DNA of 64,000 nucleotides. Source: Xiphophorus maculatus (lineage: Eukaryota; Chordata; Actinopteri; Cyprinodontiformes; Poeciliidae). The stretch spans positions 3,564,560 to 3,628,559 of the forward strand of contig NC_036458.1 of NCBI RefSeq assembly GCF_002775205.1, read 5' to 3'. Both the position numbers and the translations under genes were made by a program. The notes under the pieces are model-generated. The model was given only the letters and a program-made list of their open reading frames with translations, was not told the origin of the DNA and searched no databases. Positions 38,285-41,500 of this stretch are shown here, piece by piece (positions within the stretch are counted from its first letter, which is position 1; each line of letters opens with the position of its first letter).

Positions 38285-38539
38285 TCACGGTAAATCGTTC
38301 GGTGAGATGGCGCAGCGCCGATCGTACGCGGTGTCGTCGCTCTCCTCGCCGTCGCTCACTTCGCCCAGAACTCGCTCTCTGTCCTCTTCCTCCTCCGTTT
38401 CGCTCTCTGGCCTCAGGCGTTCCCGTTCCCGTTCCCGCTCTCTGTCCCGGATCCTGTCGCGCCCCCGATCCCGATCCCGATCCCGATCCCGATCCCGATC
38501 CCGATCCCGATCTCTGTAGCCGCGCGGTAACGTTGAAAT
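38285..38539 (-). CDS. slc1a2: Proposed last coding exon of slc1a2 (Arg-Asp-rich tail)
   Basis: A 255-base exon in phase 0 with a strong acceptor (pyrimidine-rich CTCTGTTTCTCTCCGCTTTTAG) and a TGA at 38287-38285. It encodes ISTLPRGY, eight Arg-Asp pairs from a CGGGAT hexanucleotide repeat (38465-38512), RERERE, then an acidic EEEED segment and [14 protein letters not shown]. The preceding exon can end at Gln with CAG|GTATCC (39353/39352) in matching phase. GC content is much higher than in the flanking AT-rich repeats. The opposite strand has an open RS-rich frame that I take as a shadow. Confidence 0.6.
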   Translation of the reverse strand: MSTLPRGYRDRDRDRDRDRDRDRDRGRDRIRDRERERERERLRPESETEEEEDRERVLGEVSDGEESDDTAYDRRCAISPNDLP

Positions 38540-41500
38540 CTAAAAGCGGAGAGAAACAGAGCATTCTTTGGTGAATGTACAACAGAGTATTAGGACAATT
38601 TTATGTAGAAATGAAAAGAAAGAGAGGAGTCAATTTCCGCAAAATAAAACTTAAGAGATTTTCTAGAAAAAACAAGAACATTTCTGAGCTTCAAAAGTCT
38701 GCTAGAAAAAAAACTTTAATTTTTGAGAAAAAAATAGAAAATTTTCATTTTCAAAAGTAAAAACAAAAACAACTTTTGACTCAAAAATTGCAAATAAAAA
38801 TTTCTCAAAAATTTCTAAGATTAGTCTCAAAGTCAAAAAAAGTTTTTTTTTTTTCTTTTTGCAAATTTTCCAGCTTGGAAATCTTCCCATTTTTCGAACA
38901 AATTTATGAGATTAATCAAACAATTTCTGAGGGATTTGAGTTTTTTCTAGAATTTTTTTTACTTCTCTAGCTGAAATAAAAAATTTTCTAGAGCATGTTT
39001 TATGTCAATATGTCAACATTTTGTAGTTTTTTGGTGTAAATTTTCAAGCTCAGAAATGTTCACTTTCTAGAAAATTTGTGAGATTTAAGTTTTCTCTAGC
39101 AAACTTTTGACTTTTAAAAATCTCAGAAATCTCAAAGTTTTTCTAGAAATTTTCTGAGGTCAAAAATTTCAATATCTTTTTCAGCAAATTTTCAACTTTT
39201 CACACTCAGAAATGTTCTTTCTTTTTTTTAATTTCTGGTATTAAGCTCAAAATTTCTTAGTATTTTGGTGGAAGTTCCTCCTCTTTTTATTGTATTTTCT
39301 GTCTATGGAGTCCCTAACATGGTAAAAGTCATGTCTCAGTGTTGGGGGATACCTGGTTGTCGTGGCTGGGCAGGGCGGAGTAGCCAGGCTCCGTCCTGCA
39401 GAGGAGGCGAGGCGAATGAGTGCGGAAAGGCCGAGGGGAATGGGAGCAGACGGAGCGCGGGGAGGGAGAGCGAACGGAGTGAGGTGACGGAGATCGGATG
39501 GAGCAGGAAGGTGAGTAAGTGGCGGATTGGGACTGGGACAGAACGTTGCTGTGATGGTTCATCTTCGGGGGGCGAGGGGAGCGAGGCGGCAGCTCTGGGG
39601 GCTTCAGCGGGTCGGCTAGGTCCATTTCGGTGAGGATCGGCGGCGGAGGAATGAAGTCCAGCTCCTCCTCTGTCGGGAGCATTTCCACTGCATCGAGCTC
39701 CGCCAGCTCGGCCCTCGATAAATGATCCACGATCCCGGCGCCAAACGAATCCCCAACCACGTTAATGGAGGTTCGCATTCGGTCACTGAGTGGACAGAAG
39801 CAACCAGGAAGTGGAATCATGGGTTTGCCAACAGAGATGTACACAGTTAGACACTAGGGGGTGCTAGAGCGTGTGCACCTATTCCTCTGGAGAGAAAAAG
39901 TGCCCTTTTCAAATTTTGTTTTTTATGTATTTATATGTGGCCCAAATGAGCATTTCTGGATTTAAATGCCTGTATTACTGGTGCCGCACATTTTTGTAAC
40001 TTTGCCTGACAAAAACATTTTGACAATCGAGAATTGGGGCCACGCTAAGAAAATAAAAAAATAAAAAAATTTATGAGAATAAAGTCCTAAAATTATGAAT
40101 AAAGTCATATTATTATGACTTTATTCTTGTAACACTTTTGAAATACTGTTACGAGACAGAATTTCTGTTGAGATTAACCTCAGAAACCTTTAGAAAAATT
40201 GTGGAAATTTCTTACTTTCAAAAGTCCAAATTTTCTACTTTTGAAACTTGGAAAGATGAATCTCAAAATCTCTGAGGTTTTTTTAAAACACATTTTTGAC
40301 TTTTCCACTAAGAAATTTTCTTGTTTTTTCTAAAACAATTTCTGAATCTCAAAAATAGTTTTTTGGTGCAATAATAAAAAAATACAAGAATATCTTACAT
40401 ATTGCCCTTTCATCAATTTATAATAATTTAGTCATTTAAATAATCTTAAAGTGCACTTAAAATACATCAATTTGTTTTTTCTAACCCCCAAAATGTCTGT
40501 AAACGCCACTGATCTCCAAAATAATCTCCCTGGTTTTACTGTCTGCCTCAGGAAAGATACTGACTACTCATAACTAGTTCACACAACCCATATCAAACAT
40601 AAAGCTTAAACCAGAAATTTACTCACACTACAAAAAGGCACATAACCATTTTTTTCTCTGTCTTACATTAAATCAGACTAAACATTTTCTATTTTAGGTC
40701 AGAAAGAATAAAAATTTATTTAACAAGGCTTTGTTTCGCAGTCATGTTAGCTCCCTGAATAAAGCAAAATCAATTTGAGACTAGATAAAACTGGTAAAAG
40801 AATCATTATATACACAGTGAAATACGTATTTACATGAGCTGAAATGCCACTCAAAGAGGAAGAAGCCGTGACCCTAAAAGGATTATTAAAAAGTCAGAAG
40901 CATTTAAAATTTTACTGTTAACGTTTTGGAAATAATAATAATGGAAAATGTAGTGGGAAATGCGTGATAACCACACCCTGACCGTGAAGAACAAGGGTGG
41001 CAGCATCATTATTTTCTTTAAAACGATGACATCATGATGACAGAGCACTGTGTGGAAATATTGAAACATCATCACCAACCATCAGGTAAAAGCTTGGACA
41101 AAAATAGGTCAAAGTCTCAAAAGGTGTGTGTGAGAAAGTTAGACAGAAAACCTGAGTCAGTTTGACCAGATCCGTCTCACAGGGAGCCGTTTGAAAAGAT
41201 GCACAGTAAAAAACTAACAGCAATAATTTGATTTATTTAGCTTATGGAGGAGAAGAAATGCAGGGGTTCATGTTTCAAAGTCAGATTTTCACCATGTTAT
41301 TTATATATTTATAAACGTATGAATTTAGTTTGAGTTCCAAACTAAATTTTTAATTTAGAGATGAATATTTACAAATTAAATATTCAATTTACAAACTTTA
41401 TATTTAACTTTCAAATTAAATATTTAGTTATAAACCTAAAAATTTAATTTGGAGCTAAATAGTTTGTTTGCAAACTAAATATTTAACTTTCAAATAAAAG

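Follow-up and report, generated by a model that had tools for sequence, protein, structure and literature searches.

Zebrafish EAAT7, the product of slc1a9, has a low transport capacity and a dominant anion current, and together with EAAT5b it shapes the light response of ON-bipolar cells (available sections of PMC11288666). In the eaat7 mutant alone the size of the b-wave is unchanged and the response is delayed, whereas the double mutant shows a strong loss (same sections, PMC11288666). The available parts of a study of the subfamilies place slc1a9 in synteny with human 19q13.3, describe its loss in therians, monotremes and birds, and report a 234-base exon ('exon 234') common to slc1a2 and slc1a9 (Gesemann 2010, PMC2873418). 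In zebrafish, the final two slc1a9 exons contain more coding sequence than their slc1a2 counterparts, and other teleosts are comparable (PMC2873418, Fig. 4 legend).

The tails of related transporters have been linked to localization and binding. In cultured astrocytes the C-terminus of GLT-1a holds clusters near actin, and a soluble GLT-1a C-terminus frees them (excerpts of PMC10867268), while truncation of the EAAT2 C-terminus alters binding partners in a disease model (excerpts of PMC8841566). Nuclear speckles accumulate proteins that carry R/D mixed-charge domains, which an alternating pattern favours; on its own, an alternating peptide did not phase-separate (excerpts of PMC9324279).

Gene structure and assignment to slc1a9

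The window (the whole 64-kb stretch of DNA analysed here) carries on its minus strand, from 59420 to 38285, an EAAT gene with nine splice-consistent exons. The alignment with human EAAT2 starts at residue 53 in the slc1a9-like exon 2 (59268..59420, 153 bases), and exon 1 was not found within the window. Exons 4 (54498..54603, 106 bases), 5 (54285..54411, 127 bases), 7 (48702..48896, 195 bases, containing NMDGT) and 8 (42390..42524, 135 bases) are defined by splice consistency and the EAAT2 alignment; exon 3 (56721..56974, 254 bases) carries the loop discussed below and exon 6 (50718..50951, 234 bases) lies within an open frame that matches the Pfam SDF domain (E 4.3e-14), placing the protein among the SLC1 transporters. 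Exon 9 (39353..39785, 433 bases) encodes the end of the transport domain followed by a proline-rich and Ser-Pro tail. Exon 10 (38285..38539, 255 bases including TGA) adds 84 residues with an RD/RE run, an acidic end and the stop. The AATAAA at 37136..37141 (minus strand), about 1.1 kb beyond this stop, is likely the main polyadenylation signal of the gene.

An 18-base repeat of 29.6 copies (50184-50715, TRF) starts directly after the exon 6 donor. A search of viral contigs with 77 residues of exon 6 gave 54 pattern matches, none of which was confirmed as a relative.

An earlier note on this DNA had called the gene EAAT2-like. That holds for the EAAT2 group and for a long two-exon tail unlike that of human EAAT2, but the loop, the neighbours and the longer last exons make fish slc1a9 (EAAT7), the sister subfamily of slc1a2, the most likely identity, rather than EAAT2 itself. 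The gene resembles SLC1A2/EAAT2 (GLT-1) in its transport core, in the boundary of its last transmembrane segment and in the beginning of its tail, and differs from it in the rest of the tail and in the exon 3 loop. Zebrafish EAAT7 was detected with the epitope KLRSGQVSSAPRNQEV (available sections of PMC11288666), and the corresponding peptides, each following a leading C, are KLKENLGEGLENDEV for EAAT2a and KLKANLGEGKKNDEV for EAAT2b (excerpts of PMC5467398). The exon 3 loop has 16 residues ending in NQEV, eight of them identical to the EAAT7 epitope without a gap; EAAT2a, EAAT2b and human EAAT2 have 15 residues ending in NDEV, and 5-6 of 15 match once a gap is allowed. Alignment scores were 40 for EAAT7, as against 15 for EAAT2a, 21 for EAAT2b and 19 for human EAAT2. 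Three of four published eaat7 primers also match exons (18/19, 15/18 and 16/19), where the best of the shuffled copies, 20 for each primer, reached 14. The fourth (14/21) did no better than its shuffled copies (best 15), and no fit was seen for two eaat5b primers (13/18 and 12/18).

The chromosomal setting points the same way. Besides a gene of the Nmi/IFP35 type (NID-domain), the window contains a BCAT gene, HSD17B14 and a Kv1 channel gene. BCAT2, HSD17B14 and KCNA7 are located at human 19q13.3, and with these positions the BCAT, HSD17B14 and Kv1 neighbours fit the human setting of slc1a9. The BCAT fragment scores 48.5 bits with cytosolic and 44.8 bits with mitochondrial BCAT, which does not separate BCAT1 from BCAT2. 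NUCB1, a published neighbour of slc1a9, was not seen in the window, and no gene of the 11p13 type, the setting of slc1a2, was recognised among the ten frames scanned in this one window. It is very unlikely that the gene is slc1a2, whether EAAT2a or EAAT2b, and that its tail is specific to the lineage. This reading can draw on human EAAT2 as the closest solved relative, aligned with exons 2-9 over the transport core at E 2.4e-208, though there was no EAAT7 structure among the hits, and on the 234-base exon, which both subfamilies possess; the EAAT7 length and NQEV end of the loop, the neighbours and the longer last two exons, a slc1a9 trait, speak against it. It was dropped on the loop and the chromosomal setting. 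In loop length and NQEV end, primers, setting and last two exons alike, the gene resembles zebrafish SLC1A9/EAAT7, and a slc1a9/EAAT7 identity together with a coded long tail is highly probable.

Other features of the window concern its neighbouring genes and repeats. The Kv1 gene has an intron in its coding region and two open frames (25581-26414 and 29888-30931). Within it lies an Rfam K_chan_RES element, a Kv1 RNA editing signal (30527-30640, plus strand; 95.1 bits, gathering 51). By its setting the gene is more likely kcna7 than kcna1, so RNA editing at this element would be worth a look. Just before the gene, TRF finds a 32-base repeat of 12.2 copies (25018-25408, 95% match). A dispersed element with GGTTGCTAGGTAACGGGCGGAA occurs seven times with at most three mismatches (none expected), starting at 3261, 29454, 31188, 42832, 49498, 60568 and 60599, and similar-looking tandems of 31-32 bases lie at 29429, 31138, 55180 and 60569 (TRF). 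At 4491-5327 on the plus strand, Nmi/IFP35 (NID) domains are encoded in two open frames of what is presumably an interferon-type gene.

The C-terminal tail and its last exon

Joined in frame, exons 9 and 10 encode a tail that counts 228 residues starting at DRMRTS, or 216 after VVGD; the earlier note was right that it is long and repeat-built, and its figure of about 210 residues gives way to these counts. Human EAAT2 has 574 residues and its matching D at 475, leaving a tail of 100 residues, and similarity between the two ends about 36 residues in, in agreement with the claim of a much shorter human tail of different sequence. The order proposed for the tail is likewise borne out by the exon 9-10 translation: a proline-rich part is followed by Ser-Pro octapeptides, eight Arg-Asp pairs, RE pairs and an acidic end. 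TRF recovers the octapeptides as a 24-base tandem (39432..39504, minus strand; 3.0 copies, 71% match) and the RD run as a perfect CGGGAT-type array (38464..38512, minus strand; period 6, 8.2 copies, 100% match). The eight pairs are consecutive, but they do not all stem from a pure CGGGAT repeat, the first being AGAGAT and the other seven CGGGAT. Two further RD pairs and four RE pairs follow as worn units. The CGGGAT repeat is present once in the window, where a scan for CGGGATCGGGAT with at most one mismatch returned six occurrences, every one inside the array, with 0.03 expected.

With the customary definitions of SH3-type, PPxY, dileucine and 14-3-3 motifs, a scan of the tail found one class II SH3-type core (PELPPR) and nine SP sites, and no PPxY, dileucine or mode 1 14-3-3 site. 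Arginine-type ER retention follows a rule on the middle residues of R-x-R; since these are mostly acidic in the R-x-R runs here, such retention is not argued for the tail.

Most of the tail's length is accounted for by the greater coding length of the final two slc1a9 exons, a published and therefore known trait of the subfamily with which the 228 residues here, against 100 in human EAAT2, agree. Only its RD/RE composition may be new. In the portions of the EAAT7 literature available, the RD/RE run is not mentioned, and the available parts of two studies of EAAT7 in the retina (PMC11288666 and one other) do not discuss the tail. Literature on zebrafish slc1a2a or on the C-terminus of teleost SLC1 proteins, the latter judged by title, yielded nothing on the tail, and that on arginine-based ER retention and GLT-1 nothing relevant.

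Whether the run belongs to the protein depends on exon 10, which looks coding from its acceptor, its GC content and the retention of arginine in its repeat. The acceptor (CTCTCCGCTTTTAG/ATT, the slash marking the exon boundary) and the exon 9 donor (CAG/GTATCC) are both in phase 0, and the agreement between them claimed earlier, like the exon length of 255 bases, checks out. The donor fits six of nine consensus positions, as do three other donors of the gene. Five candidates ending within intron 9 score 12/17 or more, and the acceptor, with 15 pyrimidines in 17 positions, is the best of them. A scan from 39352 to 37000 gave 15 such candidates, among which it ties for the highest score with one at 37514; the latter opens 12 codons only, against 84 for the exon 10 acceptor, and a candidate at 37084 (12/17) likewise opens 84. 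GC content is 0.64 in exon 10 and 0.63 in exon 9, with AT-rich flanks around exon 10 (0.18-0.46). The exon 9-10 junction is plausible, and we infer that it is spliced in vivo.

That exon 10 is open says little about coding, since none of the six frames of the CGGGAT array contains a stop. The wear of the repeat is more telling. The array and its worn end comprise 18 units with 25 base differences from CGGGAT, yet arginine is kept in all 18 (P 0.0001-0.0002, from placing the same number of changes at random and assuming that every unit descends from CGGGAT). As the end of this block was picked by eye, the test was repeated on a stricter set that omits the last two units: arginine is kept in 16 of 16 (P 0.001), and the other 11 of the 12 columns in six frames have P of at least 0.045 in both stricter sets. 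In the acid column, 14 of the 18 units have D or E (P 0.05), and 10 of the 16 have D (P 0.68), so that only the arginine column is clearly kept. Codon choice in the non-repeat half of exon 10 favours the sense frame (0.134, against at most 0.009 in the others). Over the whole exon, where the repeat dominates the score, the sense frame scores -0.062 and three others exceed it: sense frame 1 at 0.085, antisense frame 0 at 0.101 and antisense frame 1 at 0.009.

Alternative readings of the last exon

The exon with the RD run could be foreign to the gene: non-coding, part of a plus-strand Arg-Ser frame (38283-38519), or a piece of a splicing factor such as SNRNP70. The plus-strand frame indeed runs for 78 codons without a stop and encodes RS repeats, and the best of the weak matches of exon 10 is to a splicing protein (E 0.037). 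That match is confined to low complexity, however, and U1-70K is not among the matches at E up to 1, a search against deposited chains that may lack its charged region; moreover, exon 10 matches no Pfam family at E of 0.01 or less. An origin from U1-70K/SNRNP70 or another splicing protein was dropped on these low-complexity matches. In the antisense reading, retention of the serine and arginine columns is not clear (P 0.06 over the full set and 0.045-0.16 over the stricter ones), and a plus-strand Arg-Ser protein was dropped on this column retention together with codon choice. The frame and phase of the exon agree with exon 9, and a foreign exon is highly improbable.

Another ending of the gene lies in intron 9. 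Reading through the exon 9 donor adds seven residues (VSPNTET; 39329..39352, minus strand) before an in-frame TGA at 39331-39329, and an AATAAA (39286..39291, minus strand) begins 38 bases beyond this stop. Early polyadenylation there, with a short isoform stopping at 39331-39329, is possible, and it would resemble the situation in mammals, where GLT-1a and GLT-1b differ only in the distal tail. It is unlikely, though, that the main mRNA ends in this way, being polyadenylated after 39291 and using exon 10 rarely or never: the spacing of stop and AATAAA favours such an ending, but exon 10 has a strong acceptor, forms a GC island and retains arginine, and the last two exons of slc1a9 were compared as coding (available parts of PMC2873418). 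With exon 10 taken as the coding end of the gene, long and short forms may both exist.

The mixed-charge run and a proposed role

Within an otherwise mostly ordinary gene, the RD/RE run is, on its sequence, the unusual detail. Its 18 R-X units have D or E as X in 14, an arginine-rich mixed-charge pattern, and the block of 34 residues contains 17 basic and 14 acidic residues, leaving the net charge near neutral. Alternation of R with D/E and near-neutral charge are shared with the arginine-rich mixed-charge domains of nuclear speckle proteins; unlike these, the run belongs to a membrane transporter. To our knowledge, no role has been described for such a run on membrane transporters. The run would have arisen by expansion of a hexamer within the exon and then been kept as an arginine-rich mixed-charge stretch.

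Exons 9 and 10 would form a long cytoplasmic tail that is probably disordered. Tails in the EAAT group help control the position and movement of the transporter and, by analogy, that of EAAT7 may anchor or cluster it. In a bolder proposal, hexamer expansion would have added the run to the tail of a postsynaptic glutamate-gated anion conductance, where it would serve for clustering as a module tunable by its length, and a short isoform, ending in intron 9, would lack it. This is distinctly unlikely, and since the alternating peptide did not phase-separate alone, clustering by the RD/RE run would need a partner. For the family, it is the corrected gene name that matters: if the gene is slc1a9/EAAT7, as is most likely, teleost slc1a2 is the wrong comparison for the tail and slc1a9/EAAT7 the proper one.
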